DNA from: Oscillospiraceae bacterium
GTDB taxonomy: Bacteria > Bacillota > Clostridia > Oscillospirales > Ruminococcaceae
DNA: 64,000 nucleotides
NCBI GenBank assembly: GCA_017432285.1
Contig: JAFRJM010000003.1
Location: 44,259-108,258 of the forward strand
Reading direction: 5' to 3'
The notes below the pieces were generated by a model that was given only the letters and a program-made list of their open reading frames with translations, was not told the origin of the DNA and made no database searches. The stretch's first letter is position 1, and each line of letters opens with the position of its first letter. Below are positions 14,870 through 60,787 of this stretch, piece after piece. A program made the translations under genes and the position numbers.

Positions 14870-14879
14870 GAACTTATTG

Positions 14880-14910
14880 GCAGAGGCGCATCACCGCGTC
14901 TCTGCTTTTT
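14880..14910 (+). terminator. Terminator between paralogs 1 and 2
   Basis: GCAGAGGCGC / GCGTCTCTGC 10-bp stem with one G-U, loop ATCACC, TTTTT. Suggests paralog 1 can be made in excess over 2 and 3. Confidence 0.85.
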
Positions 14911-14931
14911 GAAACAAAAGAGGGATTTATT

Positions 14932-16029: not shown

Positions 16030-16030
16030 G

Positions 16031-40785: not shown

Positions 40786-42348
40786 GTGTTAAAAGAATTC
40801 AAATTCGACAGAGACGAAAATGTCGTTGAGACTGGGTTTGGAAAAGTTCGCGGCTATCAGTTTGACGGGATGTATGTTTTCAAGGGCATCCCTTATGCTG
40901 AGGCAGAGAGGTTCCATGTTCCGCATGCACCTAAAAAATGGGACAAAGTACTGGACTGCTCTATATATGGCTGCGTAAGCCCGCTGCTTCATTTTAACCC
41001 GCCGACAGGGGATCACCTCCTGATCCCGCGTCAGTACTGGGTACAGGGTGAGAATTGCCAGAACCTCAACCTGTGGACAGAGTCTATCAACAGTGATGTC
41101 AAAAAGCCTGTACTTGTCTGGATCCACGGCGGCGGATTCAGCGACGGTTCTTCTATAGAGGCTCCGTTCTATAACGGGTTCAACTTTGCCAGACACAACG
41201 ACTGCGTATTTGTATCTGTCAACCACAGACTGAATATCTTCGGGTATATGGATGTCTCTTCATACGGCGAGGAATACTACAACTCCGGAAACAGCGGAAT
41301 GATGGATCTGGTCGAAGCTCTAAAATGGGTCAGGGATAATATCAGCAAGTTCGGCGGAGATCCAAATAATGTAACTATAATGGGACAGTCCGGTGGCGGT
41401 GGAAAAGTATCTACTTTGCTCTCTATGCCTGCAGCAGACGGCCTGTATCACAAAGCGGTCATCATGAGCGGTATAACTACTCTTCATGACGCAGAGGTGC
41501 TTGAAGAGCCAAAGGAGCTTGTCGAAGCGATGATGAAGTTCCTGGGATGTGAGACGATCAAAGAACTGGAAAAAGTCCCATTCTTTGATCTGGCATATGC
41601 ATTCAGACAGGTATCACCGGAGATCAGAAAGATGGGCAAGAGCACAGGATGCATGCCTTACAGAAACGGCGAGTTCACAGGAAACCCATTCCATGTCGGA
41701 TTCAGAAAAGAGACCATCAATGTTCCTCTCGTGATCGGTACAGCGCTTGGAGAAGGCTTGGCATTTGTTAACAGAGGCATCAAACGTGATGAGGTGTCCG
41801 AAGAGGAGGGCAGACGGATCATAGTAGATATGCTCGGAGAAGCAGATGCGGACGAGCTGATAACCGCGTTCAAGAAGGCATATCCAGACAGGAACCCTGT
41901 AGATCTTCTTTTCGTAGATAACTGTTTCCGCGCACCTTCTACAAGATACGCAAAGCAGCGCGCTATGGACGGAGGAAAAGTATGGACATACATGTATGCT
42001 CTTGACTCTTCCATTGATGGAGGCCGTGTGCCGTGGCACAGCATAGATATCCCGCTTATGTTCAACAATGCAGATTCTGCTCCTGCTGTCTGGAACAAAA
42101 ACTACACAGAAGCAGCACAGGAAATGATCACGACATCCCTTGGTGCATTCTGCCATAACGGCGATCCGAACACAAAGGATCTGTGCGGATGGGATCCTGT
42201 AACTGCAGACAGTGTGCCAACGATGATCATGGAGGAAAGTGGCCCTCGTCTTGGAGTCAATTATGATACAGAGTTGTTGCCGTTACTGAACAAATATGCA
42301 GAAAAGCTTGGGAACGGACAGGGATTCAGCTTCGCTACAGATATTTAG
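40786..42348 (+). CDS. Type B carboxylesterase
   Basis: 520 residues, alpha/beta hydrolase of the carboxylesterase B family. Oxyanion HGGGF, nucleophile elbow GQSGGGG (the usual GESAGG altered), acid and His in the C-terminal half (HSIDIPLMF). Hydrolyses carboxylic esters; no signal peptide, so cytoplasmic. The start is GTG 40786 with GGAGGG 8 nt upstream. It precedes the seven-member esterase array and shares the terminator style of that array, so it probably belongs to the same functional locus. Confidence 0.9.
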   Translation: MLKEFKFDRDENVVETGFGKVRGYQFDGMYVFKGIPYAEAERFHVPHAPKKWDKVLDCSIYGCVSPLLHFNPPTGDHLLIPRQYWVQGENCQNLNLWTESINSDVKKPVLVWIHGGGFSDGSSIEAPFYNGFNFARHNDCVFVSVNHRLNIFGYMDVSSYGEEYYNSGNSGMMDLVEALKWVRDNISKFGGDPNNVTIMGQSGGGGKVSTLLSMPAADGLYHKAVIMSGITTLHDAEVLEEPKELVEAMMKFLGCETIKELEKVPFFDLAYAFRQVSPEIRKMGKSTGCMPYRNGEFTGNPFHVGFRKETINVPLVIGTALGEGLAFVNRGIKRDEVSEEEGRRIIVDMLGEADADELITAFKKAYPDRNPVDLLFVDNCFRAPSTRYAKQRAMDGGKVWTYMYALDSSIDGGRVPWHSIDIPLMFNNADSAPAVWNKNYTEAAQEMITTSLGAFCHNGDPNTKDLCGWDPVTADSVPTMIMEESGPRLGVNYDTELLPLLNKYAEKLGNGQGFSFATDI

Positions 42349-42564: not shown

Positions 42565-43539
42565 ATGGGTGAATTCAGAAAAATAATTACAAAAGCCGGC
42601 GAAGTACTGGACTACGAACTTGAGTTTGAAGAAAACACACGTCTGAGGACCGGCGTGCCGGAGAAGATGGGTACAGTTGAGAGATTTGACTATTCAACAT
42701 CTGTCTATGAAAACGGTGTGACCTATAACAAGACGGCTTATGTATATCTGCCGTATTGCTATGACAAGGATGACAAAGACAGAAAGTACAATGTCCTGTA
42801 CTTCCAGCACGGCAACACCTGCGAGCCTGCGATGTTCGCAATAGGCGGAAACAAGTACATGTTCGACATGCTGTTTGATTCTGGTGAACTGGATCCGTGC
42901 ATCATCGTGTTTATCACATACTACATGGATCCTATGCGCGATGCAGATGTCCGTATCCAGACCGGATGGGCAGAGGCAGGGGACGGACTGTATGAAGGTA
43001 TTCCGCCGTTCTATTACAAAGAGATCCTTCAGGATATCATCCCCGGCGTAGAGATGAAGTACAACACATATCTCACGGATCCTTCTGCCGAAGGCATCAA
43101 GGCTACAAGAGATCACCGCGCATTCTCCGGATATTCCAGAGGTGCCATCTGGACCTGGAGGATGTTCAATTACGCGTTTGAGTATTTCAGATGGTTCTGC
43201 CCGACCAGCGGTGGTGTTCCGAACAGCGTTCCGGAACCGCACGTCGAGGGAGACCCCAAGCTGTTCAACGTGCCTGATGAGGAAGTTGTAGAGTATATCA
43301 CTGCTCCGATCAAAGCACACCCCGATCTGCCGTTCTTCCTCTATGTTGCGAACGGAGGTGTGAGAGACGGTATTTGGGTGCGCAAGCAGGTAAAACTTCT
43401 CTCTGAGCAGCCGGAATTCTCATATGGATCAGATCCTACAAAAAACAATCTGCTGTATTCTCTGTCTGATTACTATCACACAGACTATCTGATCCCGTAT
43501 TATTTCTGGAACTATCTGAAGATCTTGTTCAAATTATAA
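42565..43539 (+). CDS. Array esterase A (alpha/beta hydrolase)
   Basis: 324 residues, esterase D / feruloyl-esterase-like alpha/beta hydrolase. Oxyanion region YFQHGN (His82-Gly83), nucleophile Ser191 in GYSRG, candidate Asp268 in GGVRDG and His305 in YHTDYL, all kept throughout the array. The segment 218-240 differs from each paralog. No signal peptide; cytoplasmic. ATG 42565 has AAAGGAGG. Has its own terminator. Substrate unknown; the fold covers acetyl-, feruloyl- and S-formylglutathione esterases. Confidence 0.85.
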   Translation: MGEFRKIITKAGEVLDYELEFEENTRLRTGVPEKMGTVERFDYSTSVYENGVTYNKTAYVYLPYCYDKDDKDRKYNVLYFQHGNTCEPAMFAIGGNKYMFDMLFDSGELDPCIIVFITYYMDPMRDADVRIQTGWAEAGDGLYEGIPPFYYKEILQDIIPGVEMKYNTYLTDPSAEGIKATRDHRAFSGYSRGAIWTWRMFNYAFEYFRWFCPTSGGVPNSVPEPHVEGDPKLFNVPDEEVVEYITAPIKAHPDLPFFLYVANGGVRDGIWVRKQVKLLSEQPEFSYGSDPTKNNLLYSLSDYYHTDYLIPYYFWNYLKILFKL

Positions 43540-43552
43540 GGTGAACGTTTGA

Positions 43553-43585
43553 CCGCCTAAACGGAAGATACTGTTTAGGCGGCTT
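43553..43585 (+). terminator. Terminator, CCGCCTAA family
   Basis: CCGCCTAAAC / GTTTAGGCGG perfect 10-bp stem, then CTTCT; weak T-run. Confidence 0.7.
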
Positions 43586-43657
43586 CTGATTATCTGTTTA
43601 AATAGCACTGCTATATCTCGATATGGCATTCATAATATTTTAAGAGAGGGAGAGGAA

Positions 43658-44632
43658 ATGGGCGAATTCAGAAAAGTTATAACAAAACCAGGCGAAGTCA
43701 TAGGCTATGAGACCGTTTTCGAAGAGAATCCCTATCTGCGTACCGGTGTGCCGGAGAAGATGGGTACTGTAGAGAGATACGACTATTCAACATCTGTCTA
43801 TGAAAACGGCGTCACTTACAACAAAACAGCATATGTATATCTGCCGTATTGCTATGACAAGGATGACAAGGACAGGAAGTACAATGTCCTGTACTTCCAG
43901 CACGGCAACACCTGTGAGCCGGCGATGTTCGCAATAGGCGGAAACAAGTACATGTTCGACATGCTGTTCGACTCCGGTGAACTTGATCCCTGCATCATAG
44001 TGTTTGTGACGTACTATATGGATCCAATGCGCGATGCAGATGTCCGCACGCAGACCGGTGGTGCTGAAGCAGGCGACGGTGTGACACCCGGCATTCCGGC
44101 AAATTATGATAAAGAGATAGTAAAGGATATCATCCCTGGTGTGGAGATGAGATACAATACATATCTGACCGATCCGTCAGAAGAGGGTATCATTGCTTCA
44201 AGGGATCATCGTGCGTTTGCAGGCTACTCAAGAGGATGCGCATGGACCTGGAGATTCTTCCACTACGGTTTCAAATATTTCAGATGGTGGTGTCCTACAA
44301 GCGGAGGCATCGATTGCGATCAGCCAATACCTATGCCGCCTGACAGCCGTCCCGGTCCGTCGAATACAGATGAGGAGATCGCAGCTTATGTTACAGCTCC
44401 GATAAAGGCAAATCCGGATCTTCCGTTCTTTATCTATACGGGAAGCGGGGGAAAGACGGATGCTTTCTGGATGCGCCATCAGATCAAGGTGCTGACAGAG
44501 CAGCCGGAGTTCTCTTATGGCCCTGATCCTGCAAAGAATAATCTTCTGTATACTTTGTCGGACTACTACCATACAGACTATCTTATCCCGTATTACTTCT
44601 GGAACTATCTGAAAGTCATCTTCAAGATATGA
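43658..44632 (+). CDS. Array esterase B (alpha/beta hydrolase)
   Basis: 324 residues. Same fold and triad (GYSRG, GGKTD, YHTDYL). Differs from A at WWCPTSGG and in a proline-rich variable segment PIPMPPDSRPGPS, shared in style with esterase G. The first 120 residues are nearly identical to A, C, D and E. Trp-Trp near the active site may narrow the pocket. SD GAGAGGGAGAGG before ATG 43658. Own terminator, so A and B can be transcribed as separate units. Confidence 0.85.
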   Translation: MGEFRKVITKPGEVIGYETVFEENPYLRTGVPEKMGTVERYDYSTSVYENGVTYNKTAYVYLPYCYDKDDKDRKYNVLYFQHGNTCEPAMFAIGGNKYMFDMLFDSGELDPCIIVFVTYYMDPMRDADVRTQTGGAEAGDGVTPGIPANYDKEIVKDIIPGVEMRYNTYLTDPSEEGIIASRDHRAFAGYSRGCAWTWRFFHYGFKYFRWWCPTSGGIDCDQPIPMPPDSRPGPSNTDEEIAAYVTAPIKANPDLPFFIYTGSGGKTDAFWMRHQIKVLTEQPEFSYGPDPAKNNLLYTLSDYYHTDYLIPYYFWNYLKVIFKI

Positions 44633-44658
44633 TCTCTGTGTAATTCGTTATAGCATTA

Positions 44659-44696
44659 AACCGCCTAAACGATCTTTTATCGTTTAGGCGGTTTTC
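44659..44696 (+). terminator. Terminator, CCGCCTAA family
   Basis: AACCGCCTAAACGAT / ATCGTTTAGGCGGTT perfect 15-bp stem with TTTT on the right and AAA on the left. Confidence 0.9.
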
Positions 44697-44840
44697 ACTA
44701 ATAACAATATTGGTTTTTGGGCAAAATAGAAAACTGTAAATATAAAGCGGTTTGTTTAATTGACTTTACAAAACAAAAGTGAAATAGTGATAGTGTATGG
44801 AATATTTTTGTTGATATTGAACAGAAAAAAGGAGGCAAAC

Positions 44841-45815
44841 ATGGGCGAATTCAGAAAAGTTATAACAAAACCTGGTGAGGTTTTGGCATATGAGACCGTT
44901 TTCGAAGAGAACCCTTATCTGCGTACCGGCGTGCCGGAGAAGATGGGAACTGTTGAAAGATTCGATTATTCGACATCTGTCTACGAAAACGGAGTGACCT
45001 ATAACAAGACGGCTTATGTATATCTGCCGTATTGCTATGACAAAGACGACAAGGACAGAAAGTACAACGTCCTGTACTTCCAGCACGGCAACACCTGCGA
45101 ACCTGCGATGTTCGCAATAGGCGGAAATAAGTATATGTTCGATATGCTGTTTGATTCCGGTGAGCTTGATCCCTGCATCATAGTTTTTGTTACATACTAT
45201 ATGGATCCAATGCGTGATGCAGATGTCCGTATTCAGACCGGCCTTGCAGAGGCAGGAGACGGACGCACGCCAGGTATCCCTATGCTTTATTACAAAGAGA
45301 TCTTAACAGACATCGTTCCTGCCGTGGAGATGAAGTACAACACTTATCTGGTAGATCCGTCAGAAGAGGGGATCATATCCACAAGAGATCACCGTGCATT
45401 CTCAGGCTATTCTAGAGGTTCCGCATGGACATGGCGCATGTTCCACTACGCTTTCCCGTATTTCAGATGGTTCTGCCCGACCAGCGCAGGAATTCCCGGA
45501 AAAGCGCCTCAGTTGCCGGTACCTGGTCAACGTCTGCGTATGGAGATCCCCAAAGAGGAATACATTGATTATATTACAGCTCCTATTAAAGCAAATCCTG
45601 ATCTTCCGTTCTTCATTTATGCTGCAAGCGGCGGAAAGACGGACGCTTTTTGGATGCGTGACCAGATCAAGACACTGACCGAGCTGCCGGAGTTCTCATA
45701 CGGATCAGATCCGAAGAAGAACAACATTCTGTATGCTTTGTCAGATTACTATCATACTGACTATCTGATTCCTTACTATTTCTGGAACTATCTGAAGGTC
45801 CTTTTCAAGGTTTAA
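44841..45815 (+). CDS. Array esterase C (alpha/beta hydrolase)
   Basis: 324 residues with GYSRG, GGKTDAFW and YHTDYL. The variable segment reads GKAPQLPVPGQRLRMEIP. First gene of the tight run 44.8-51.0 kb, which continues without terminators through hydrolase H and esterases D, E, F and G. ATG 44841 has AAAGGAGG 7 nt upstream; the frame is open 27 codons earlier but without SD. Confidence 0.85.
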   Translation: MGEFRKVITKPGEVLAYETVFEENPYLRTGVPEKMGTVERFDYSTSVYENGVTYNKTAYVYLPYCYDKDDKDRKYNVLYFQHGNTCEPAMFAIGGNKYMFDMLFDSGELDPCIIVFVTYYMDPMRDADVRIQTGLAEAGDGRTPGIPMLYYKEILTDIVPAVEMKYNTYLVDPSEEGIISTRDHRAFSGYSRGSAWTWRMFHYAFPYFRWFCPTSAGIPGKAPQLPVPGQRLRMEIPKEEYIDYITAPIKANPDLPFFIYAASGGKTDAFWMRDQIKTLTELPEFSYGSDPKKNNILYALSDYYHTDYLIPYYFWNYLKVLFKV

Positions 45816-45866
45816 TGTGATCTTTTCATCTCAATCTTCATATTTCCGGTGAAAGGGGTTTGATCG

Positions 45867-46898
45867 ATGGAAGATCAGAGACTGAGCAGATTTACTGAGG
45901 AATTCAGATCCGCAAACGAATATGTTCTGGATCCGGGCCGATTCACAAAAGAGACTTTCGATCCGTACAACAGCCTTGTGACTCTCATCACTCTTGAGGT
46001 CGAGTTTTATGACTTTCCAAGAGAAGGTGATGTAGTGCAGAAGCAGCTTGATGAGTTGGAAGAGCTGAGAAAGAAACTGGTTCCTGATGAAGACGGTATC
46101 AAGGCATGGGATATATGGGGAGAAAAAGTTCCTACATACGGTGAAGTAGGTAGTTTCGAACTGACATATACAAACCCGGATTTCCGTCCTCTGCTGGTGC
46201 CGTATCTTTGTGAGAACCAGGATGAAGTAAAAGGAAACATTATCGCTATTGCAGGTGGCGGGTATGTCATGCGCTGCAACGCATATGAAGGGTTCAACAT
46301 CGCAGAATACTACAGAGATCATGGGTACAACGCATATGTTCTTCAGAGACGTATAACTCCGTATCACCCTGTAAATGCGCACCTGGATCTGCAGCGTGCA
46401 ATAAGGTTCGTGAGAGCAAATTCGGAGAAATATGGAATCGGCAACACGGATCATATTGCTGCTGTCGGTTTTTCCGGCGGAGGAGCCACGATCTATGGAA
46501 CTATGATGAGCCATTATGGACATATTCTGCCTGATCAGTTTGATCCATCTTATTGTCCGGACGATGTCGACAGTATCGATTCTGACCTGCAGGCTGCTTT
46601 GTTCATCTACGGCACAGGAAGAAGTATAAAGGGAACGGATAACTGCAACATACCCCCAGCGTTCATGGTTACCGGTGAAATGGATGAATACCATGCAGAC
46701 GTCGACTCGGTAACAAGATATATGGAGATGAAGGAAGCGGGAATAAACGCGGAACTTCATATTTTCTCTGATCAGCATCATGGATTCGGTCTTGGCGACG
46801 GCAACTGCGACAGCATGAGATCGGAACCGCATCGGATCCCTGGCGTGGAGGAATGGCCTGAAATGTCTCTGGCATTTCTTGAGCGTACTTTTTCTTAA
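45867..46898 (+). CDS. Alpha/beta hydrolase H inside the esterase array
   Basis: 343 residues, not a paralog of A-G. Alpha/beta hydrolase of the acetylesterase/BD-FAE type: nucleophile Ser in GFSGGG, oxyanion block AIAGGGYVM, Asp in TGEMDEY and His in DQHHGFGLG. An N-terminal extension of about 60 residues precedes the fold. No signal peptide. AAAGGGG precedes ATG 45867. Inserted between esterases C and D with short gaps (51 and 34 bp), so co-transcribed; likely a partner acting on the same compounds, for example removing acetyl groups. Confidence 0.85.
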   Translation: MEDQRLSRFTEEFRSANEYVLDPGRFTKETFDPYNSLVTLITLEVEFYDFPREGDVVQKQLDELEELRKKLVPDEDGIKAWDIWGEKVPTYGEVGSFELTYTNPDFRPLLVPYLCENQDEVKGNIIAIAGGGYVMRCNAYEGFNIAEYYRDHGYNAYVLQRRITPYHPVNAHLDLQRAIRFVRANSEKYGIGNTDHIAAVGFSGGGATIYGTMMSHYGHILPDQFDPSYCPDDVDSIDSDLQAALFIYGTGRSIKGTDNCNIPPAFMVTGEMDEYHADVDSVTRYMEMKEAGINAELHIFSDQHHGFGLGDGNCDSMRSEPHRIPGVEEWPEMSLAFLERTFS

Positions 46899-46932
46899 AT
46901 TGAAATAATTAATTATAAAAGGAGAGGGAGCA

Positions 46933-47907
46933 ATGGGTGAGTTCAGAAAAGTTATAACAAAACCAGGTGAAGTCCTGGCTTATGAGACCGTTTTCGAAGA
47001 GAACCCCTATCTGCGTACCGGCGTGCCGGAGAAGATGGGAACTGTAGAGAGATTTGACTATTCAACATCTGTCTATGAAAACGGAGTGACCTATAACAAG
47101 ACGGCTTATGTATATCTGCCGTATTGCTATGACAAGGATGACAAGGACAGAAAGTACAATGTCCTGTACTTCCAGCACGGCAACACCTGCGAGCCGGCAA
47201 TGTTTGCGATAGGCGGAAACAAGTACATGTTCGACATGCTGTTCGATTCCGGCGAGCTGGATCCGTGCATCATAGTATTCATCACATACTACATGGATCC
47301 GATGCGTGATGCAGACGCCCGTATCCAGACGGGTATGGCAGAAGCGGGAGACGGTATCTGGGAAGGGATCCCTCCGTTCTATTACAAGGAGATCCTTCAA
47401 GACATCGTTCCGGGCATTGAGATGAAATACAACACATATCTAACAGATCCTTCTGCCGAAGGCATCAAGGCCACCAGAGATCACAGAGCGTTCTCCGGTT
47501 ATTCCAGAGGCTGTATGTGGACATGGCGCATGTTCTACTATGCCTTTGAATATTTCAGATGGTTCTGCCCGACCAGCGGCATGATTCCGTTTATCAATCC
47601 AACACCTATTCATGTTGGTGAGCGTCCTAATTTCACAGCCCCGGATGATGAGGCGATAGAATTTATCACTACTCCTATTAAGAATAATCCGGATCTGCCG
47701 TTTTTCATTTATGCTGCAAGCGGCGGCAAAATAGACGCGAGTGACATGCGCAAGCAGATGAAGTTGATTACCGAGCTGCCGGAGTTCTCATACGGATCAG
47801 ATCCGACAAAGAACAACATCCTTTATGCTTTGTCTGATTATTATCACACAGACTATCTGATCCCGTATTATATGTGGAACTATCTGAAGATCATTTTTAA
47901 AGCGTAA
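46933..47907 (+). CDS. Array esterase D (alpha/beta hydrolase)
   Basis: 324 residues, GYSRG, GGKIDASD and YHTDYL. The first 120 residues almost match C. Variable segment INPTPIHVGERPNFTAP. Tip of the helix near the pocket reads MIPF where others have GG. SD AAAAGGAGAGG, ATG 46933. Ends with MWNYLKIIF, where others have FWNYL. Confidence 0.85.
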   Translation: MGEFRKVITKPGEVLAYETVFEENPYLRTGVPEKMGTVERFDYSTSVYENGVTYNKTAYVYLPYCYDKDDKDRKYNVLYFQHGNTCEPAMFAIGGNKYMFDMLFDSGELDPCIIVFITYYMDPMRDADARIQTGMAEAGDGIWEGIPPFYYKEILQDIVPGIEMKYNTYLTDPSAEGIKATRDHRAFSGYSRGCMWTWRMFYYAFEYFRWFCPTSGMIPFINPTPIHVGERPNFTAPDDEAIEFITTPIKNNPDLPFFIYAASGGKIDASDMRKQMKLITELPEFSYGSDPTKNNILYALSDYYHTDYLIPYYMWNYLKIIFKA

Positions 47908-47950
47908 TAAAATATTCAAAACATATGACAAATTGAAAAGGAGGCAAAAA

Positions 47951-48937
47951 ATGGGCGAATTCAGAAAAGTGATCACAAAACCCGGTGAGGTTTTGGCTTA
48001 TGAGACCGTTTTCGAAGAGAATCCTTATCTTAGGACCGGCGTGCCGGAGAAGATGGGAACTGTAGAGAGATTTGACTATTCAACATCTGTCTATGAAAAC
48101 GGAGTGACCTATAACAAAACGGCTTATGTATATCTGCCGTATTGCTACGACAAGGATGACAAGGACAGAAAGTACAATGTCCTGTACTTCCAGCACGGCA
48201 ACACCTGCGAGCCGGCAATGTTTGCGATAGGCGGAAACAAGTACATGTTCGACATGCTGTTTGATTCCGGCGAGCTGGATCCGTGCATCATAGTATTCAT
48301 CACATACTACATGGATCCGATGCGTGATGCTGATTCCCGTATCCAGACCGGTTTCGCTGAAGCAGGAGACGGACTGTATGCAGGCATTCCTCCGTTCTAT
48401 TACAAGGAGATTCTTAAAGATATCGTTCCTGCTGTGGAGATGAAATACAACACGTATCTCACAGATCCTTCAGATGAAGGCCTCATAGCCACAAGGGATC
48501 ATCGTGCTTTCTCCGGATACTCCAGAGGTTCGATGTGGACCTGGAGAATGTTCCATTATGCATTCCCGTATTTCAGATGGTTCTGTCCGACCAGCGGCGG
48601 TATCCCAGGCGGTGAACCCAAACCGTTTGATCCTAACTTCCGCCCTGGAACCCGTCCGTTACCAGTGGTTCCTGATGAAGAAGTTATCAAGTATATGACT
48701 GAGCCTATAAAGGCAAACCCCGGTCTGCCGTTCTTCATCTATGCTGCGAGCGGCGGTATGAGAGATGGCCCGGGAATGCGCAAGCAGATCAAGCTTCTTT
48801 CGGAGCAGCCGGAATTCTCATATGGATCAGATCCTTCGAAGAACAATCTTCTGTATTCTCTGTCTGACTACTATCACACAGACTATCTGATCCCGTACTA
48901 TTTCTGGAACTATCTGAAGGTCATTTTCAAAATATAA
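47951..48937 (+). CDS. Array esterase E (alpha/beta hydrolase)
   Basis: 328 residues, slightly longer because the variable segment is extended and proline-rich (GGEPKPFDPNFRPGTRPLP). Triad motifs GYSRG, GGMRDGPG, YHTDYL are kept. Shares KQIKLLSEQPEFSYG with A and differs from D there, which suggests mosaic exchange between copies. AAAAGGAGG precedes ATG 47951. Confidence 0.85.
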   Translation: MGEFRKVITKPGEVLAYETVFEENPYLRTGVPEKMGTVERFDYSTSVYENGVTYNKTAYVYLPYCYDKDDKDRKYNVLYFQHGNTCEPAMFAIGGNKYMFDMLFDSGELDPCIIVFITYYMDPMRDADSRIQTGFAEAGDGLYAGIPPFYYKEILKDIVPAVEMKYNTYLTDPSDEGLIATRDHRAFSGYSRGSMWTWRMFHYAFPYFRWFCPTSGGIPGGEPKPFDPNFRPGTRPLPVVPDEEVIKYMTEPIKANPGLPFFIYAASGGMRDGPGMRKQIKLLSEQPEFSYGSDPSKNNLLYSLSDYYHTDYLIPYYFWNYLKVIFKI

Positions 48938-48988
48938 GATGATCTACAAAAACGCATAGTATTATTGAAATATACAAGGAGATTTAAA

Positions 48989-49942
48989 ATGGGCGAATTC
49001 AGAAAAGTGATCAGCAAACCGGGTGAGATCATCGATTTTGAGACAGTGTTTGAAGAAAACCCTTATATCAGGACCGGTGTCCCGACGAAAAAAGGAACCG
49101 TAGAAAGAGTGGATTATACCACTTCTGTTTACGAGGACGGAAAGACTTATGAGAAGTACTGCTATGTTTACCTTCCGTATGGATATGATCCGGAAGATAA
49201 GAGTAAGAAGTACAATGTCCTGTATTTCCAGCACGGCAACACATGCGAGCCTTCGATTTTCGCCATCGGCGGCAACAAACCCATGATCGACATGCTGTTC
49301 GAGTCAGGCAAATATGAACCCTGTATCATGGTAAGCATCACATATTATATGGATGCTATGGGTGATTCAGCAGAAAGACTCATCACCGGCATGGTTCCTG
49401 CAGGAGACGGCGGCTGGCCGCACATGAAACCGAACTATCACAGGGAAGTTCTCGAGGATATCATTCCTGCAGTCGAGATGAAGTACAACACCTATCTCAC
49501 GGATTCTTCAGCTGAAGGGATCAAGGCAACGAGAGATCACCGTGCATTCTCCGGATATTCAAGAGGATGCGTCATGACATGGAGAATGCTCTACTATGCA
49601 TTCGAGTATTTCAGATGGTTCCTTCCAATGAGCTGTGTGACACGCGGTGAGCATGTTATCGGTGATCCTATCACCAGAGAAGAAGCGGTAGAGTACATCA
49701 CCACTCCTATCAAAGCTCATCCTGAACTTCCGTTCTTCATCTATGCAACCAACGGCGGCAAGGAAGATGTTGTGGAAATGAACGAGCAGATGAAACTGCT
49801 TACCAGAGAGGATTGTTTCTCATACGGAACAGATCCTGAAAAGAACAATATCTACTTCTCAGTGTCTGACTTCTATCACACAGACTTCCTGGTACCGTAT
49901 TATTATTGGAACTCATTTAATGTTCTGTTCAAAGGTATATGA
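48989..49942 (+). CDS. Array esterase F, most divergent copy
   Basis: 317 residues. Keeps GYSRG, GGKED and YHTDFL but differs throughout: VPTKKGTVERVDYTTS, YLPYGYDPEDKSKK, MIDMLFESGKYEPC. The variable segment is short (RGEHVIGDP) and the pocket helix reads FLPMSCV instead of FCPTSGG. Probably the oldest branch of the array. SD AAGGAG, ATG 48989. Confidence 0.85.
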   Translation: MGEFRKVISKPGEIIDFETVFEENPYIRTGVPTKKGTVERVDYTTSVYEDGKTYEKYCYVYLPYGYDPEDKSKKYNVLYFQHGNTCEPSIFAIGGNKPMIDMLFESGKYEPCIMVSITYYMDAMGDSAERLITGMVPAGDGGWPHMKPNYHREVLEDIIPAVEMKYNTYLTDSSAEGIKATRDHRAFSGYSRGCVMTWRMLYYAFEYFRWFLPMSCVTRGEHVIGDPITREEAVEYITTPIKAHPELPFFIYATNGGKEDVVEMNEQMKLLTREDCFSYGTDPEKNNIYFSVSDFYHTDFLVPYYYWNSFNVLFKGI

Positions 49943-49983
49943 GAGTCTATTGACCGCTTTTTGCTGTTTGAGAGGTGAATAAT

Positions 49984-50961
49984 ATGAAAGAATACAGAAA
50001 AGTAATAACAAAGCCCGATGAGGTTTTACCTTACGAGGTCGTATTCGAAGAGAACCCCTATCTGCGTACCGGTGTGCCGGAGAAGATGGGGACAGTAGAG
50101 AGATTTGACTACACGACATCCGTCTATGAGAATGGCGTAACCTATAAAAAGACAGCATATGTATATCTGCCATACTGCTATGACAAAGATGACAAGGACA
50201 GAAAGTACAATGTCATGTATTATCAGCACGGCAACTACTGCGAGCCTGCGATGTTCGCGGTAGGCGGAAACAAGTATATGTTCGATATGCTGTTTGATTC
50301 CGGTGAGCTTGATCCCTGTATCATCGTTTTCATAACATACTATATGGATCCGATGGGCGAGGCAGATGAGAGGACGCAGACAGGTGGAATTACTGCAGGC
50401 GACGGCTGGACAGAAGGAATCCCGGGGAATTATTACAAAGAGATCGCGCAGGACATCATTCCTGGCGTAGAGATGAAATATAACACTTATCTTACTGACC
50501 CGTCAGAAGAGGGTGTCATAGCATCGAGAGACCACCGCGCACTTGTAGGGTATTCCAGAGGAACTGTATGGACATGGAGAATGTTCCACTATGGATTCCC
50601 TTACTTCAGATGGTGGTGCCCGACGAGCGGATTCGTTGTATGCGATAAACCTGTTCCGATGCCTCCGGGAAGTGGTCCGATGCCGGTCATCTCTGATGAG
50701 GAGGTCATAGATTACATCACAGCTCCGCTCAAAGAGTATCCTGATCTTCCGTTCTTTATCTATGCAGCGTGCGGCGGCAAGATGGACGGTGGCCCCTGGA
50801 TGCGCAATCAGATCAAGCTTCTGACTACATTGCCGCAGTTCTCATACGGATCAGATCCTTCGAAGAACAATATCTTCCTGTCTCTTTCTGATTATTATCA
50901 CACTGACTATCTGATCCCGTATTATATGTGGAACTATCTGAAAGTGATCTTCAAACTATAA
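49984..50961 (+). CDS. Array esterase G (alpha/beta hydrolase)
   Basis: 325 residues, starts MKEYRKV where others have MGEFRK. Triad motifs GYSRG, GGKMDGGPW, YHTDYL. Like B it has WWCPTSG and a variable segment DKPVPMPPGSGPMPV. In the oxyanion region YYQHGNYCEP it differs from the YFQHGNTCEP of A-E. I use ATG 49984 with GAGAGGTG upstream rather than GTG 49975. Last gene of the run; a strong bidirectional terminator follows. Confidence 0.85.
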   Translation: MKEYRKVITKPDEVLPYEVVFEENPYLRTGVPEKMGTVERFDYTTSVYENGVTYKKTAYVYLPYCYDKDDKDRKYNVMYYQHGNYCEPAMFAVGGNKYMFDMLFDSGELDPCIIVFITYYMDPMGEADERTQTGGITAGDGWTEGIPGNYYKEIAQDIIPGVEMKYNTYLTDPSEEGVIASRDHRALVGYSRGTVWTWRMFHYGFPYFRWWCPTSGFVVCDKPVPMPPGSGPMPVISDEEVIDYITAPLKEYPDLPFFIYAACGGKMDGGPWMRNQIKLLTTLPQFSYGSDPSKNNIFLSLSDYYHTDYLIPYYMWNYLKVIFKL

Positions 50962-51048: not shown

Positions 51049-52224
51049 TTATTCTTCGGGATAGTGAATTCCCTTATTCTTTGCAACCCAGATAATCATG
51101 ATCAAGATTGAGGCCGCCATGGGGAGAGTGCTATACAAGAACAGTTTGGAGTAGCCGACAGCTTCAGCTATCCGTCCGTTTATCATACCGCCTAAAGTAG
51201 TTCCTCCGTCATAACCTATATAACAGGATGAACTTGCAGCGCCTCTTCTGCTGGCCGGTGTGAGTTTCATGACCAATGCCTGAAGCAAAGTGTGGGCAGA
51301 TGAGAATCCTGCAGCGCTTAGCACGGCGCAGAACCAAAGCTCCCATTTTGAGGAGACATTGGATATCAGCAGAAAATACACAATATAGATCATGAAACAG
51401 GGGATAATGACTTTGGGCATTCCGTATTTATCTGAAAGAGTTCCGGTAAGAGGTCTGAACAAGACAAGACATATAGCACTGATAGTGTAATAGAAACTTA
51501 CGCCTTCAATACCTCTGTCAGTTGCGTGTAGAACAAGGAAACTGGATACCGCAGATGAGGATATGGCTAACAGGAACAGAAGACATACAGGAACTGTCGC
51601 TTCAACAGCAAAGATGGAATGCAGATTGATGCGGAAAGGCTTTCTCTCATGCTCGCTGTAATCCATTAGGAATCCCATGCTGGCAGCAAGAACAATAAGG
51701 AATCCGGAAACGAAGTAGACAAATCTATATCCAAACTGCTCTGAGAGGCTCAACCCTATTCCTGGGGCCAGAGCCTGAGGCAGAACATTGCTTAAAGTGT
51801 ATGTTGCAACACCGCTGGAGAGCTTTTCTTTTGGAATGGATCCGGAAGCCATAGCAAGACAGAGAGCGGCCTGGCTGCCGTATGTTATTCCGTGCAGCAT
51901 CCTGAAAAAGATGACCCAGCCTATGCTCGTCGCGGAGCCATAACCAAACATGCAGAGCGCATTGCCAAAAGTCAGAAAGATGAACAGAATCTTCTTGTTA
52001 AATGCATCTATAGCAGGTCCGGAAACCGGTCTTGCAGCAAGTGCTACCAAATAAAAAGCACTGGACACAAATCCGATCAGCGTATCAGTAGCACCCATAG
52101 AACGGCTATACAGCGGAAGAAGGGTATTTACCATATAAACTCCCGCAGATGAGAGCATATGGGAGACAAATAAAAGTATGAAGTTTCTTGTCCATATACT
52201 GGACTCGTTTTTGCTTAGATCCAT
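51049..52224 (-). CDS. MFS transporter
   Basis: 391 residues with twelve predicted membrane helices; family motif in the helix 8-9 loop reads TGTLSDKYGMPK. Short N-terminus (MDLSKNESSIWTRNF). Lies convergent to the esterase array and divergent from the GH2 gene, so it could import the substrates of these enzymes or export products; the cargo cannot be read. SD GAGAG about 9 nt before the start. Confidence 0.85.
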   Translation of the reverse strand: MDLSKNESSIWTRNFILLFVSHMLSSAGVYMVNTLLPLYSRSMGATDTLIGFVSSAFYLVALAARPVSGPAIDAFNKKILFIFLTFGNALCMFGYGSATSIGWVIFFRMLHGITYGSQAALCLAMASGSIPKEKLSSGVATYTLSNVLPQALAPGIGLSLSEQFGYRFVYFVSGFLIVLAASMGFLMDYSEHERKPFRINLHSIFAVEATVPVCLLFLLAISSSAVSSFLVLHATDRGIEGVSFYYTISAICLVLFRPLTGTLSDKYGMPKVIIPCFMIYIVYFLLISNVSSKWELWFCAVLSAAGFSSAHTLLQALVMKLTPASRRGAASSSCYIGYDGGTTLGGMINGRIAEAVGYSKLFLYSTLPMAASILIMIIWVAKNKGIHYPEE

Positions 52225-52409: not shown

Positions 52410-54548
52410 ATGAGAATTGATTTGAGAAACGGATGGCAGGTTCTGCAGGATGTTCATGACAACGGTGAGAACTGCAGATTACAGGAAAGAACAGGGGCAA
52501 ATACGGATATAGGGGAAGCACTCTCAGATTGGGAACCTTTGAAGGAACTCAAGCAACTCCAACTGATTTTCGATGAGCACCCTTATTACGGAAGGCAGCT
52601 TCGGTATTTCAATCAGGCGCCATGGTGGTACAGAAAGTTCATAACTGTTCCGGATACTAGGTACGGGCGGTATATCCTTCATTTCTCGAACGTTGACCAG
52701 TACTGCAAAGTGTGGTTCAACGGACAGTTCGTTTCCGAGCATGAAGGGTATATGCTGGCTTTCGATCTGGATGTGACACCTTATATAAAGTTAGGTAAGG
52801 AGAACCTTCTTGTCGTCAAAGTGTGGTCCCCATGGGATTCTGAAGTAGAAAACGACAATTTTGGTTCCCGGACATTCCGTATCGAAAGGCGGATGGTGAA
52901 GGGGACTTACGAGCATGCGGACGGATTTATCCAGCGAGATGTCAATCCGATAGGGATCTACGGAGAAGTATATCTCGAGATGTACGATGAGGTGCGCCTT
53001 TGTGATCCCGATATACGATATGACCTGGATCTTTCATCAAAAACAGCAATAGTAACGGCGGAGTCAGGCATCGATATGGTGCTTGATGGCGAATATACTG
53101 CTTCTATAGTGATCTCGGACCTTGAAGATGGAAATGAAATTCTACGCTTGGAACAGCCTCTTTCAGGCGATCAGCTGATGATGTCAGGACAAACACTGCC
53201 GCTTGATCTCTGGTCTGTGTGGGATCAGGGAAAGCCTAATCTTTATAAGGCCAGTCTGAAGGTTAGCAATGGACAAAGGGTCTGTGATGAGTACTCGATC
53301 GTTCTTGGATTCCGTACTATAGAGCTGGTGCGCGACAGGGAAAAGACGCAGGCGGTACTTAATGGAAGACCTTTCTATATCCGCGGCACATCGTATTTTC
53401 CGGATGTATATATCTCGAACATGACGGAGGAGAAGTACCGCAGAGATCTTCTGCGCATCAGGGAAGCGGGATTTAATCTGATTCGTGTACATGTACACGT
53501 AGAGCAGCCTGCTTTCTACGAGATCTGTACAGAGCTTGGTATCGGAGTTATGCAGGACAGTGAGTTCAACTGGGCTCATCCCACAGAAAGATCATATGAG
53601 GACAGGTTCGTAGATATTTATTCAAAAACGATACGTATGCTTAAGCATCACACTGCTATCTTCTTCTGGGTATGCCTGAATGAACCTGGATTCATGACTC
53701 CAGCAGGAATGCACTGTGATCTGATGGATGTCTCTCCGGGACCTGCTCTTTATGAGAACGCAAGGAGGATCGATCCGAGCAGAAGCGTTATAAAGGGTTC
53801 ATGCTGGGAAGAGGATCTGTTAAGCGGAGATTCGCATAACTATCTGGGTTCTCTGGTTGCAGAGGATACCCATTACAGTGATATCTACGGGACGGTAGAA
53901 AAGTTCAACACAGAATACGGCTTCGATGCTCCTCCTGAAGCTGATGTGCTGGCTACAGATCCCCGTTTGTACAAGAGGCTGGAACAACTGATCCCCAATA
54001 TTGACGAGATACAGGAATATCAATACAAGCTGCTCAAATACTACACGGAACATTACCGTATGCAGAAGCACTCACCCAACAACGGATACATCCAGTTCCT
54101 CTTCAGCGATCTTTGCCTTCAGAGCTTCTATGGCATTTACGATCATCTCGGAAATCCCAAGAAGGGCTTGAAGGCGATGGAGGAAAGCAACAAACCTGTC
54201 GGGATCTTCCTGAAGTATTTCAAAGATCTGGATGAGATACATCTTGTGAACGATCTGCCTTCAGCACTTGGGGAAGTGACCGTGGCATGGTGTGTAAGCG
54301 ATGAAAATGGAACTATACTTTGTTCAGGCGAAAAGACCATAGATGTTCCTGAGGACTGCAATATAACCGTATACAGATTTGAAGAGAGTTTTCCGAATGC
54401 AGATACATGTGTTTTATCAGTGATGCAGAACGGAAAAACACTTTGCTGCAACGAGTATCACGATCTGTTGAAGATGCCCCCTCACGTAAAGGGCCATCCC
54501 AGTAGACTGGATCATGAGATTGGATGCAGGCTGTATTGGGCAGAATAA
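52410..54548 (+). CDS. Glycoside hydrolase family 2
   Basis: 712 residues. N-terminal jelly-roll sugar-binding domain, Ig-like middle domain, then the TIM barrel with acid/base Glu425 in CLNEPG and nucleophile Glu502 in NTEYG; their spacing of 77 fits GH2. Activities in the family include beta-galactosidase, beta-glucuronidase and beta-mannosidase; the motifs do not decide among them. No signal peptide, so substrates must be imported. GGAGGAAT precedes ATG 52410. The C-terminal Ig-like part (about 610-712) is unusual in length but not identified. Confidence 0.9.
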   Translation: MRIDLRNGWQVLQDVHDNGENCRLQERTGANTDIGEALSDWEPLKELKQLQLIFDEHPYYGRQLRYFNQAPWWYRKFITVPDTRYGRYILHFSNVDQYCKVWFNGQFVSEHEGYMLAFDLDVTPYIKLGKENLLVVKVWSPWDSEVENDNFGSRTFRIERRMVKGTYEHADGFIQRDVNPIGIYGEVYLEMYDEVRLCDPDIRYDLDLSSKTAIVTAESGIDMVLDGEYTASIVISDLEDGNEILRLEQPLSGDQLMMSGQTLPLDLWSVWDQGKPNLYKASLKVSNGQRVCDEYSIVLGFRTIELVRDREKTQAVLNGRPFYIRGTSYFPDVYISNMTEEKYRRDLLRIREAGFNLIRVHVHVEQPAFYEICTELGIGVMQDSEFNWAHPTERSYEDRFVDIYSKTIRMLKHHTAIFFWVCLNEPGFMTPAGMHCDLMDVSPGPALYENARRIDPSRSVIKGSCWEEDLLSGDSHNYLGSLVAEDTHYSDIYGTVEKFNTEYGFDAPPEADVLATDPRLYKRLEQLIPNIDEIQEYQYKLLKYYTEHYRMQKHSPNNGYIQFLFSDLCLQSFYGIYDHLGNPKKGLKAMEESNKPVGIFLKYFKDLDEIHLVNDLPSALGEVTVAWCVSDENGTILCSGEKTIDVPEDCNITVYRFEESFPNADTCVLSVMQNGKTLCCNEYHDLLKMPPHVKGHPSRLDHEIGCRLYWAE

Positions 54549-55178: not shown

Positions 55179-56579
55179 ATGGCCAGAACAAACAACAATA
55201 ATACTATAGACTTAGTCAGCGGACCGATATTCTCCAATCTTATCCGGTTTGCTATCCCTATATTATTCGGAAGCATCGTAACACAGTTTTACAATGTAGC
55301 CGACTCTATGATCGTAGGGAGGTTTATAAGTTCAGAAGCACTTGCAGCAGTTTCCGCAAGCGCTCCGATAGTCAGTATCATCAATTTGTTCGCTATAGGT
55401 CTTTCTTCCGGATCCAATGTTGTCATAGCTCAGAGAGTCGGATCAGGTAACCATGACGCTCTGCAGAAGGCAGTTTCGACTGTTTCTTTCCTGACATTAA
55501 GCTGTTCTGTTTTCATTACAGTGCTGGGACTTGTTATCAGCCGTCCTATGCTTGCTGTCCTGAAAACGCCGGAAGAGATAATGGACGCCTCTACGCTCTA
55601 TCTGGTTATCGTTTTTCTTGGAACTACAGGGAACCTTATATATCAGATGGGAACAGGTGCCCTGAGAGGAATGGGTGACGTAAACTGGCCGCTGTTTTTC
55701 CTGGTTATATGCAGCGTTCTGAACATAGTGTTCGACCTCATTGCCGTTCTAGTTTTTAATCTCGGTGTCGAAGGTGTTGCTGCAGCTACGGCGATATCGC
55801 AGCTTATATCCGGGGCTGGAATAATATACAGGATAAACAAAGGCTACTATGGGATAAAGGTCGGTCTCTCCGAGTTGAAACCGGACAGATACGAGCTTGG
55901 CGAGATCGTCAGGATCGGATTGCCTGCTGCTATCCAGAATATCGGCAATACTCTCGCCAGCATGTTCGTTCAGTCTTCTGTAAACACATTCGGTTCAACA
56001 TTTATAGCTGCCAACAGTATTGTGAACCGTGTTGATATGATGCTGTATATACCTGTCGATGCTCTCAGCACTGCTCTCTGCACGTTTGTAGGGCAGAACA
56101 TGGGAAGGTTTCAGCTGGACAGGATCAGAAAAGGCATCAACTTATCGATAGCCACACTGTCAGTGATCGGAGTCGGGCTATGCGGTACACAGATAGCTTT
56201 CAGGCACATCCTCCCGACGCTTTTTACAAAGGATATTGATGTTTTGGATATCGCAGCGGACGGATTATTTATCATGGCGTTCCAGTGCCTTTTCTACTCC
56301 ATTGACCGTTGTCTGGTAAATGCGATGCGTGGGGCAGGGAAATCCGTGGTTCCTATGATCACGGCGCAGTTTGGCGCTTTTTCAAGAATACCATTGTCGT
56401 ACTATTTAGGAGTCAAGACAGGTGACTGGCACGGTATTTTCTGGGCTATGCTTATCGCAGCATTTTTGCGCAATGCGGCAATAACCTTGTACTACTTCTG
56501 CGGCGGATGGAACAGAGTTGTAAAGCAATATGAGGAAAAACATCCTGAGCTTTTTGTTGACAAGAAGGAAGTAATTTAG
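55179..56579 (+). CDS. MATE family efflux transporter
   Basis: 466 residues, twelve predicted helices in two related halves, as in MATE/NorM/DinF antiporters. N-terminal block GPIFSNLIRFAIPILFGSIVTQFYNVADSMIVG is typical when read in parts (FNVADS-type helix 1). Exports drugs or metabolites in exchange for H+ or Na+. Weak SD (GAGGGATTGA) before ATG 55179. Terminator follows. Confidence 0.92.
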   Translation: MARTNNNNTIDLVSGPIFSNLIRFAIPILFGSIVTQFYNVADSMIVGRFISSEALAAVSASAPIVSIINLFAIGLSSGSNVVIAQRVGSGNHDALQKAVSTVSFLTLSCSVFITVLGLVISRPMLAVLKTPEEIMDASTLYLVIVFLGTTGNLIYQMGTGALRGMGDVNWPLFFLVICSVLNIVFDLIAVLVFNLGVEGVAAATAISQLISGAGIIYRINKGYYGIKVGLSELKPDRYELGEIVRIGLPAAIQNIGNTLASMFVQSSVNTFGSTFIAANSIVNRVDMMLYIPVDALSTALCTFVGQNMGRFQLDRIRKGINLSIATLSVIGVGLCGTQIAFRHILPTLFTKDIDVLDIAADGLFIMAFQCLFYSIDRCLVNAMRGAGKSVVPMITAQFGAFSRIPLSYYLGVKTGDWHGIFWAMLIAAFLRNAAITLYYFCGGWNRVVKQYEEKHPELFVDKKEVI

Positions 56580-58359: not shown

Positions 58360-59418
58360 TCAATCTTCGTCGAATTTCTCTCTTGTGAGTTTATATACTT
58401 CGAAATCGAACGGAAGACCAGGATCATTGTAGTGTGACAAGGCTGCCGGTTTGTCTTTGATAGCAAATTCTTCCACGAATTTGGCTGCCCACTCTCTCTG
58501 TGTGTCATCATCTGCATCGGGCGGACAATCATTGGCTGGAACATTCATGAGTAGTTTATCGCCGTACTGCTCATATATCAGGTGATAGTCGTTGATAGCC
58601 ATACCGTCCCAGCAGTCCCAGCCTGCCTCTATCATGCATGGAATGAGTCTTTCGACTTTACCGCAGGAATGCAGGTTGGTGAAATATCCCAGACTGTGGA
58701 TATGGTCTGTGACCTTTCTCATATAGGGAACAAGCATCTCCCTGACTATTCTCTCGTTGAAGAAAGGCCCATCCTGTGCACCCCAGTCATCATGGATAGT
58801 GATGCCGTCAACGAGGTCGCCATAATATTTGTAAACGTGGTCGACTACATCTATCCAAAGATCTGCGATCTTGTCCATCAGTTCCTTTACGTCGTCTTTT
58901 GTTTTGCGATTCATAAGAGCATATGCTGCAGGACCGAAATCCATGAAAGAGATCAGTCTCTCAAAGAAACCAGTGAGGATACAGAAAAATTGAGGCCTGG
59001 TACTTTCGGCAAGATAGTTTCTGTCAGATTCTGCACTGCCTTCCCAGTCCCAACTGTCGACATCGGGGAATTTAATGATCTCTCTCCATTGTGTAACGTC
59101 TTTTAATGTTGGGTTTCCGGGTCTGACTATAGAACCGTTGGCAGATGGAACGAATTCCCAGTCTATGCCAAACATATCGAGCCCGCCTACAGGTCCTTCA
59201 TACTTCTTTCCTTGCATGACCATGGCTCTTGCGGGGTTGTCAGGAAGGAGCTCCGGAAGGAAATTCATCTTGTCGTCAGCCTTGGGCATCCAAAGCTGTT
59301 TATGCTCCATGGCTCTTCGGAAATTCTCTCTTGCTGTAATAGGGGAGGCATATTCTATCATCAGACGTCTGCCTTGGATATATTTAGCGTTTTCTATCTC
59401 TTTGGGATCAAATTTCAT
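58360..59418 (-). CDS. UROD-fold methyltransferase-like protein 1
   Basis: 352 residues of the uroporphyrinogen-decarboxylase superfamily. The block LHSCGKV holds His250 and Cys252 and a further Cys298 lies in PANDCP; this His-x-Cys-Gly...Cys set matches the zinc site of MtaA/MtbA-type corrinoid:coenzyme methyltransferases rather than HemE. In Clostridia such proteins serve demethylation of methoxylated or methylated compounds with a corrinoid protein, which is not seen in this window. AAAAGGAGAC precedes the start. Paralog of the gene upstream. Confidence 0.82.
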   Translation of the reverse strand: MKFDPKEIENAKYIQGRRLMIEYASPITARENFRRAMEHKQLWMPKADDKMNFLPELLPDNPARAMVMQGKKYEGPVGGLDMFGIDWEFVPSANGSIVRPGNPTLKDVTQWREIIKFPDVDSWDWEGSAESDRNYLAESTRPQFFCILTGFFERLISFMDFGPAAYALMNRKTKDDVKELMDKIADLWIDVVDHVYKYYGDLVDGITIHDDWGAQDGPFFNERIVREMLVPYMRKVTDHIHSLGYFTNLHSCGKVERLIPCMIEAGWDCWDGMAINDYHLIYEQYGDKLLMNVPANDCPPDADDDTQREWAAKFVEEFAIKDKPAALSHYNDPGLPFDFEVYKLTREKFDED

Positions 59419-59534
59419 AGTAAAAAGTCTCCTTTTGGTTCCTCATCTTATGAATATGATAATATGATACGACAACATAAGGCAGTTGTGAACATCTAAT
59501 ACCACCGAATATTTCAAATCTGTCAAAACCAGAT

Positions 59535-59567
59535 AAAAAGAGCAGATAACATAATGTTATCTGCTCT
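59535..59567 (-). terminator. Terminator of the second UROD-fold gene
   Basis: AGAGCAGATAACAT / ATGTTATCTGCTCT nearly complete palindrome, AAAAA to its left. Confidence 0.9.
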
Positions 59568-59641
59568 CAATCTATCTATTCTTTTATTTCATCGGTTTGC
59601 CGAACGAAGTTGAAGCAACCGTGTCCATTATTCCTTAGAAA

Positions 59642-60703
59642 TTAGTCTTCGTTGCCAAATTTCAGTCTTGTGAGACGGTACAGTTCAACATCAAACACAA
59701 AACCAGGATCATTGTAGTTAGATAAGGTTGCAGGTTTGTCTTTGATTGCAAACTCATCAGCGTATTCGGCTGCACACTTTCTCTTTGTGTCATCATCCGC
59801 ATCTGCAGGACAGTCGTTGGCAGGAACATTCATGAGAAGTTTATCGCCGTACAGGTCATATATCAGGTGGAAGTCGTTAATGGCCATTCCGTCCCAGCAG
59901 TCCCAGCCTGCCTCTATCATGCAGGGAATGAGCTTTTCGACTTTTCCGCAGGAGTGCAGGTTGGTGATATAACCTAGGCTGTGGATATGATCTGTGACTT
60001 TCCTCATGTAAGGGACAAGCATTTCCCTGACTATTCTGTCGTTAAAGAAAGGCCCATCCTGCGCACCCCAGTCATCATGGATAGTGATGCCGTCTACGAG
60101 ATCACCGTAATATTTAAAGACATGGTCAGCAACGTCGATCCAAAGATCTGCGATCTTGTCCATCAGCTCTTTTACAGTGTCTTTTGTTTTACGGTTCATG
60201 AGGGCATATGCTGCAGGGCCGAAATCCATGAAAGATATCAGTCTCTCAAAGAAACCGGTATAGAGGCAGAAAAGAGGGGATCTGTTGTTGTTGGCGAGAT
60301 ACTCTCTGTCCGGTTTGGTGCCGTTTTCCCAATCCCAGCTGTCGACATCGGGGAATTTGATGATCTCTTTCCATTGTGTAACATCTTTGAGTGTCGGGTT
60401 TCCGGGACGTACGATGGAGCCGGCAGCAGATGGAACGTATTCCCAATCTATTCCGAACATGTCAGGTCCGCCTTTTGGACCTTCATAAGGCTTTGCCTGT
60501 GTGATCAACGCCCTGGCTCTGTTGTCCGGAACGAACTCGGGAGTGAAATTGAACTTGTCTCCAGCCATAGGCATCCACAACTGTTCACGCTTAAGCGCTC
60601 TTTTGAAATTTTCCCTTGGGGTTATAGGGGAGGCAAAATCAATCATGACACGCCTTCCTTGAATAAGCTTAGCGTTTTCTATTTCTTTAGGGTCGAATTT
60701 CAT
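59642..60703 (-). CDS. UROD-fold methyltransferase-like protein 2
   Basis: 353 residues, highly similar to protein 1 over its whole length, with the same LHSCGKV and PANDCP zinc motifs. Differences cluster near residues 60-85 and 125-145, likely substrate contacts. Start at the Met at 60703, with GGAGG upstream; the frame is open 20 codons earlier without SD. Each copy has its own terminator, so they are probably separate transcripts with the possibility of different inducers. Confidence 0.82.
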   Translation of the reverse strand: MKFDPKEIENAKLIQGRRVMIDFASPITPRENFKRALKREQLWMPMAGDKFNFTPEFVPDNRARALITQAKPYEGPKGGPDMFGIDWEYVPSAAGSIVRPGNPTLKDVTQWKEIIKFPDVDSWDWENGTKPDREYLANNNRSPLFCLYTGFFERLISFMDFGPAAYALMNRKTKDTVKELMDKIADLWIDVADHVFKYYGDLVDGITIHDDWGAQDGPFFNDRIVREMLVPYMRKVTDHIHSLGYITNLHSCGKVEKLIPCMIEAGWDCWDGMAINDFHLIYDLYGDKLLMNVPANDCPADADDDTKRKCAAEYADEFAIKDKPATLSNYNDPGFVFDVELYRLTRLKFGNED

Positions 60704-60758
60704 ATATCTTTTCCTCCAAAAATTTTGACGCATTTGAATTTCTTGATTCACTACTTCT

Positions 60759-60787
60759 ATCATACGCTATCTCTAAGCAGAAGTGAA
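60759..60787 (-). promoter_or_regulatory. Putative promoter of UROD-fold gene 2
   Basis: On the minus strand TTCACT at 60787-60782, 17 bp spacer, TATGAT at 60764-60759. TTCACT recurs inverted at 60747-60752 and could be an operator pair. Confidence 0.5.

Follow-up and report, generated by a model that had tools for sequence, protein, structure and literature searches.

The feruloyl esterase module of XynY/Xyn10B from Clostridium thermocellum (1gkk, 1gkl; CE1) is part of a larger secreted xylanase, and among solved structures it is the nearest to the proteins that we report here. A second point of comparison is the rumen bacterium Butyrivibrio proteoclasticus. PMC5217386 describes Est1E and Est2A as found in cytosolic extracts and without a predicted signal peptide, and Est1E, a cytosolic feruloyl esterase, is proposed there to act on imported esterified oligosaccharides. 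Our subject is an array of seven paralogous esterase genes, A-G, at positions 42565-50961 of a 64,000-nucleotide stretch of DNA (the window) from an Oscillospiraceae bacterium (GCA_017432285.1, contig JAFRJM010000003.1, positions 44,259 to 108,258). The host genome is 2.13 Mb in 46 contigs, is rated 54.6% complete, and the 3' edge of the window is the end of a 108-kb contig (C30). A-G are like the XynY module in their profile match over both domain halves and in their Ser-Asp-His triad, but unlike it at the positions where XynY contacts ferulate. They are likened to Est1E and Est2A by description and not by sequence, the putative common trait being de-esterification in the cytosol.

We believe, with a probability of about 0.6, that A-G are cytoplasmic CE1-like esterases that were duplicated and diversified in acyl specificity, and that they act on imported plant-derived esters. 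The copy set would have formed, probably at a second locus that now holds copies P1 and P2, and most of it would have come to stand in the window beside an older copy, F. Gene conversion of residues 29-136 would help keep one catalytic scaffold, and a loop at residues 211-250, which by the XynY alignment would line the acyl pocket, would diverge copy by copy. The enzymes may then cleave different acyl groups off imported small plant esters or esterified sugars, which would free the sugar or alcohol for catabolism. An earlier note on this DNA had proposed a locus for ester catabolism or detoxification with many related substrates; as a prediction, an ester-hydrolysis locus with several such substrates stands, and it fits the invariant triad and variable pocket loop described below.

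All seven genes are complete open reading frames of about 320 codons on the plus strand, with every frame open: A (42565..43539), B (43658..44632), C (44841..45815), D (46933..47907), E (47951..48937), F (48989..49942) and G (49984..50961). We placed the starts at the common MGEF/MKEY N-terminus; for A, C, E, F and G the first start codon lies further upstream. The GYSRG, GGxxD and YHTD(Y/F)L motifs that the earlier note had listed are present in all seven. Identity to A is 77% for B, 80% for C, 83% for D, 84% for E, 64% for F and 75% for G. Each protein passes the PF00756 cut-off of 22 bits, though by small margins (22.8-26.5 bits).

Profile searches point to the same group. In a search of solved-structure sequences, a profile of the 12 copies found in this genome matched XynY (1gkk) at E 2.9e-27, and a 55-sequence profile did so at E 7.9e-40, with XynY among the nearest solved sequences. 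The 55 sequences are the 12 copies and 43 of 51 named homologous loci, eight loci being omitted as partial, near-duplicate or not needed. At E<=0.01 there are 13 matches to solved sequences, and every one bears a name from a short list: xylanase Y or Z, CE1 or ferulic acid esterase, isoamylase-domain protein, putative esterase. The triad (Ser191, Asp268 and His305 in B numbering) is present in all seven and invariant across the 55-sequence alignment. In the alignment of that profile it is in register with the XynY triad, save for a one-residue gap choice at the Asp. We assign A-G to the serine esterases of the PF00756 (CE1-like) group, with activity predicted from these matches. By reading of the sequences, the N-termini are hydrophilic and no signal peptide could be discerned, which would fit cytoplasmic enzymes.

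Searched with B, the genome yields 12 strong copies, each at E 1e-131 or better, plus a single weak match. Besides A-G these are P1 and P2 (C45:21445-23440), P3 and P4 (C45:89371-91322) and P5 on contig C15. Eight other members of the genus have 3, 1, 3, 2, 1, 3, 1 and 0 copies at E<=1e-60; with genome completeness of 68-94%, these counts may fall short of the true numbers. Across the order, with at most seven candidates scored per genome, 6 of 295 genomes (the host included) have a match at this threshold, and the other five carry 1-2 copies. Among the 51 named loci, 49 have one copy and two (L088 and L090) have three each; the loci are truncated at 10 kb or where a contig stops, and bigger arrays could escape for this reason; some genomes also have copies at further loci. 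A ruminant or horse source is named in 24 of the 51 locus titles, and 15 more carry RUG numbers, which we take to denote rumen genomes. The known relatives of the host live in the guts of plant-eating animals.

The earlier note had taken a single copy in related genomes, together with an array that is an assembly error, as grounds for giving up its reading. The copy number is nearly that low (0-3 strong copies in each of the eight genus members), but the divergence between the copies speaks against the assembly error. Synonymous sites differ by 45-67% among A, B, C, D, E and G, and the longest identical tract between any two of 10 copies compared is 113 bp, so we consider a collapsed or repeated assembly unlikely as the source of the array.

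In the tree, P1 and P2 group with A, B, C, D, E and G in a single clade (support 99/96), and F, P3, P4 and P5 lie outside it. F is by this tree an older, separate paralog and no close sister of the other array members, which modifies the picture of many copies of one esterase. The nearest kin of the clade may be four loci, L066, L068, L069 and L071, with weak support (82/86) in a tree of the C-terminal half; the full tree does not resolve this. We treat these loci as same-genus, going by agreement of their contig positions with G001, G004, G002 and G003. The full tree gives P1 a shorter branch than any other clade member, and the C-terminal tree nests it among the array copies; a regulator-like gene near the P1/P2 locus is common to L066, L068 and L069. 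We infer that the P1/P2 locus on C45 is the ancestral site and the window array derived; the lineage-specific copy set probably arose from the locus that now holds P1 and P2. The copies are old, with synonymous sites close to saturation.

At L037, in a genome (G075) of another family of the order, there is also a close esterase copy (E 9.6e-190); going by position on the contig, this and L075 from goat omasum are one gene. Horizontal transfer may have carried it outside the family, or the contig may be wrongly binned; relatives occur in other genera of that family too. We considered a mobile origin for the genes and rejected it, as none of 284 pattern-matched viral-contig stretches encodes a relative.

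Changes are unevenly distributed along the gene. Synonymous differences among A, B, C, D, E and G average 0.59 per site, but over residues 16-105 they drop to 0.34-0.48 in the array versus 0.58-0.80 in orthologs (14 of 16 A-type loci, leaving out the near-duplicate L076 and L080, which is a second copy in one genome). We found a low-synonymous 54-codon window in 12 of 66 copy pairs (at most five of 1000 shuffles as low, uncorrected for the number of pairs), and in 10 of these 12 the window lies inside residues 24-125. Some of the pairs span contigs, among them B/P2 and D/P1. This pattern points to partial homogenisation of residues 29-136 by gene conversion. Drawn on gene D, which has low windows to A, B, E and P1, the near-identical segment is 47017..47340 on the plus strand.

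The loop at residues 211-250 (44288..44407 on the plus strand when drawn on gene B) stands out in the divergence profile as the most variable part of the array copies. Nonsynonymous differences per site in the array are 0.034 for residues 29-136 and 0.361 for the loop. For the same two regions, four same-genus orthologs at one-copy loci give 0.025 and 0.019, the 14 A-type loci (which include L070 and L079, from genomes with further copies) 0.069 and 0.099, and seven F-type loci 0.089 and 0.156. The values are 0.100 and 0.361 in the L088 triplet, 0.093 and 0.298 in the L090 triplet, and 0.029 and 0.324 in a dispersed pair of RUG612 (L070/L080). The median ratio of the loop to the rest of the C-terminal half is 2.81 (1.67-3.93) in the array, 2.31 and 2.05 in the triplets and 2.92 in the pair, versus 0.48, 0.65 and 1.10 in the three one-copy sets. 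One-copy loci conserve the loop and duplicated sets vary it, although the two triplets are of common origin by sequence and at most three separate duplications are sampled.

For the pocket we relied on a contact list in PMC2963615, which cites Prates 2001: in XynY, ferulate touches Asp980, Trp982 and Asn1023, and Leu958 lines the pocket. By offset from the nucleophile in the profile alignment, Leu958, Asp980, Trp982 and Asn1023 correspond to B residues 195, 217, 219 and about 271; the Asn1023 match depends on a gap choice, and the list is second-hand. Mean entropy at these four positions is 2.27 versus 0.71 overall in the 12 copies (p 0.0001 against random sites) and 1.74 versus 0.54 in A-G (p 0.0014). 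Read from A to G, the residues are IAAMMVV at 195, GGGMGVF at 217, PDPPPRV at 219 and WWWDGEW at about 271. Outside A-G, the Trp982 position is occupied by Trp in P3, and the Asn1023 position by Asn in P4. With two of the four positions inside it, loop 211-250 is expected by this alignment to line the acyl pocket.

The array is one part of a larger pattern that was outside the view of the earlier note. That note had correctly placed a type B carboxylesterase just upstream of A (40786..42348, plus strand, GTG start as listed; PF00135 E 1.7e-75), and at E<=1e-60 there are 41 such enzymes in the genome, 12 of them on C28 and 11 on C21 (10 in one run). In a first-look survey with up to 13 candidates scored per genome, we counted 48 candidates in the host and between 18 and 51 in each of the other eight genomes of the genus; outside it the survey covered 91 genomes, of which two had 16 and 18 and the remaining 89 no more than 9. 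In the class, 29 of 196 genomes (host included) have a match at 1e-60, and the host has 47 candidates, the next highest among the matches listed being 13. An excess of type B carboxylesterases marks the genus. The C28 and C21 clusters are tandem paralogs like A-G, but they belong to an unrelated family, and 20 of 23 enzymes examined have no hydrophobic N-terminal stretch. Seven C28 genes have a conserved first part (to about residue 225) and a variable part (about 225-405); their synonymous divergence is even at 0.62-0.83 throughout, with no low segment such as A-G have. Values on C21 run from 0.41 to 0.86, for three genes only. Sugar-binding-protein-like genes, a xylulokinase-group kinase and an arabinose operon lie between or beside the type B clusters (C28:20363-51973, L028-L029; C21:28079-48249, L030-L031).

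A broader idea, which we put forward tentatively, is that this genus of herbivore-gut Clostridia, with tens of esterases in each genome, lives by opening esters inside the cell, with arrays that would diversify the pocket loop while exchange between copies keeps the scaffold uniform, so that each species would build its own panel of specificities. We hold it at less than even odds; it is weakened by the finding of a homogenised scaffold in the host copies but not in the two triplets or the C28 carboxylesterases. If true, this would give bacteria a counterpart to the large carboxylesterase sets of plant-eating insects and point to an overlooked ester-breaking niche in the herbivore gut. The array would also offer a ready-made set of enzymes with a common scaffold and differences mostly round the pocket, and it could be used to learn how acyl specificity is set. 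Among the matches listed in a search of open-licence literature (titles and the starts of abstracts), we found no description of such an array or of a comparable carboxylesterase excess in bacteria.

Several observations weigh against diversified esterases acting on imported plant esters. At each of the four contact positions all of A-G differ from XynY, which leaves feruloyl specificity itself unsupported. Only 217 and 219 fall in the loop, and one-copy loci also vary at the contact positions (1.04 versus 0.42 in 16 orthologs, p 0.024). Loop ratios in two of the one-copy sets reach 1.84 and 2.06, which overlaps the array range, and the near-identity of residues 29-136 is not repeated in the L088 and L090 triplets. 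Positive selection is not demonstrated, with synonymous sites near saturation. The genome has few URO-D methyltransferases (5 matches), the enzymes wanted for ferulate demethylation. Lastly, a survey of the 51 named loci and of four host-genome stretches turned up no neighbour gene that accompanies the family consistently; in about 20 of the loci an antisense reading frame was taken instead of the esterase, which weakens the survey.

A different role would be detoxification, in which the array, together with the numerous carboxylesterases, would neutralise plant toxins or xenobiotics that carry ester bonds and enter the cell, and would not serve catabolism. Many divergent copies with N-termini unlike signal peptides would suit this, as would an MFS transporter adjoining the array (51049..52224, minus strand; PF07690 E 4.6e-42) and a MATE-transporter-like protein, so called by reading of its open reading frame, at 55179-56579. 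Carboxylesterases are also among the detoxification gene families described in insects. However, no efflux or regulator gene is fixed adjoining the family in those 51 loci and four stretches, and the C21 type B cluster adjoins a sugar-type ABC transporter and an L-arabinose isomerase gene. We regard detoxification as unlikely. The import and sugar-gene context of the Butyrivibrio type is present at this C21 cluster; at the array there are only the MFS gene and a glycoside hydrolase family 2 protein (52410..54548, plus strand; PF02836, PF02837), both known as neighbours only and not conserved beside other copies.

Redundancy, in which extra copies would serve to increase the dosage of a single activity and a weakly constrained loop would drift, is in our judgement quite unlikely. 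Duplicated genes often relax, and in two of three between-species ortholog pairs of triplet members the loop has diverged further than the rest (25/33 and 27/33 residues alike). However, the third pair keeps the loop at 31/32, one-copy loci of other species keep it better at similar synonymous distance, array residues 29-136 are almost fixed, and all seven frames are open with intact triads. PF00756 also includes siderophore esterases and acyltransferases, but some such other use of the fold is very improbable here, as neither siderophore esterase nor mycolyltransferase occurs among the names of the 13 solved-sequence matches (E<=0.01).

Within the array, an unrelated hydrolase, H (45867..46898, plus strand), sits between C and D as had been described. 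It matches BD-FAE (PF20434, 34.2 bits with a cut-off of 26.8), versus PF00756 for A-G. Its best NCBIfam match, the acetylxylan esterase AxeA1, is far under the cut-off (54.7 of 700 bits), and its best relatives are one 73% identical gene in G006 and then a 38% identical one in G005. The tight packing of C-H-D-E-F-G is also as reported, with gaps of 51, 34, 43, 51 and 41 bp; A-B and B-C are 118 and 208 bp apart. A terminator-like hairpin of 12 pairs follows A (43553..43582, plus strand), by consensus match only, and the 10 terminator-like sites in the region are barely above shuffles (mean 7.2, standard deviation 2.9).

MoaF-domain proteins lie near esterase copies at two loci of the host genome (L025:11532-12476 and L026:5327-7056), and at L108 a MoaF-related protein adjoins an esterase copy together with OYE- and URO-D-like genes. 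We looked at a link to O-demethylation and rejected it: there are 5 URO-D matches in the host and 1-2 in each of the eight genus members, and another member of the family has 27. Two adjacent URO-D-like proteins in the window (58360-60763) are weakly like methylcobamide methyltransferases. The OYE-type reductase count of the genus is on the high side, with 4 in the host and 2-6 in each of the eight members; 19 of 28 other genomes of the family searched have none, and one genome of another family has 8. The window has another tandem array, three adjacent paralogs at 13751-17131, the first of which matches nucleoside 2-deoxyribosyltransferase in two stretches. On C45 there are five adjacent paralogs (L026:14980-18836, the last truncated by the end of the stretch), which look like SAM hydroxide adenosyltransferase (DUF62) proteins.
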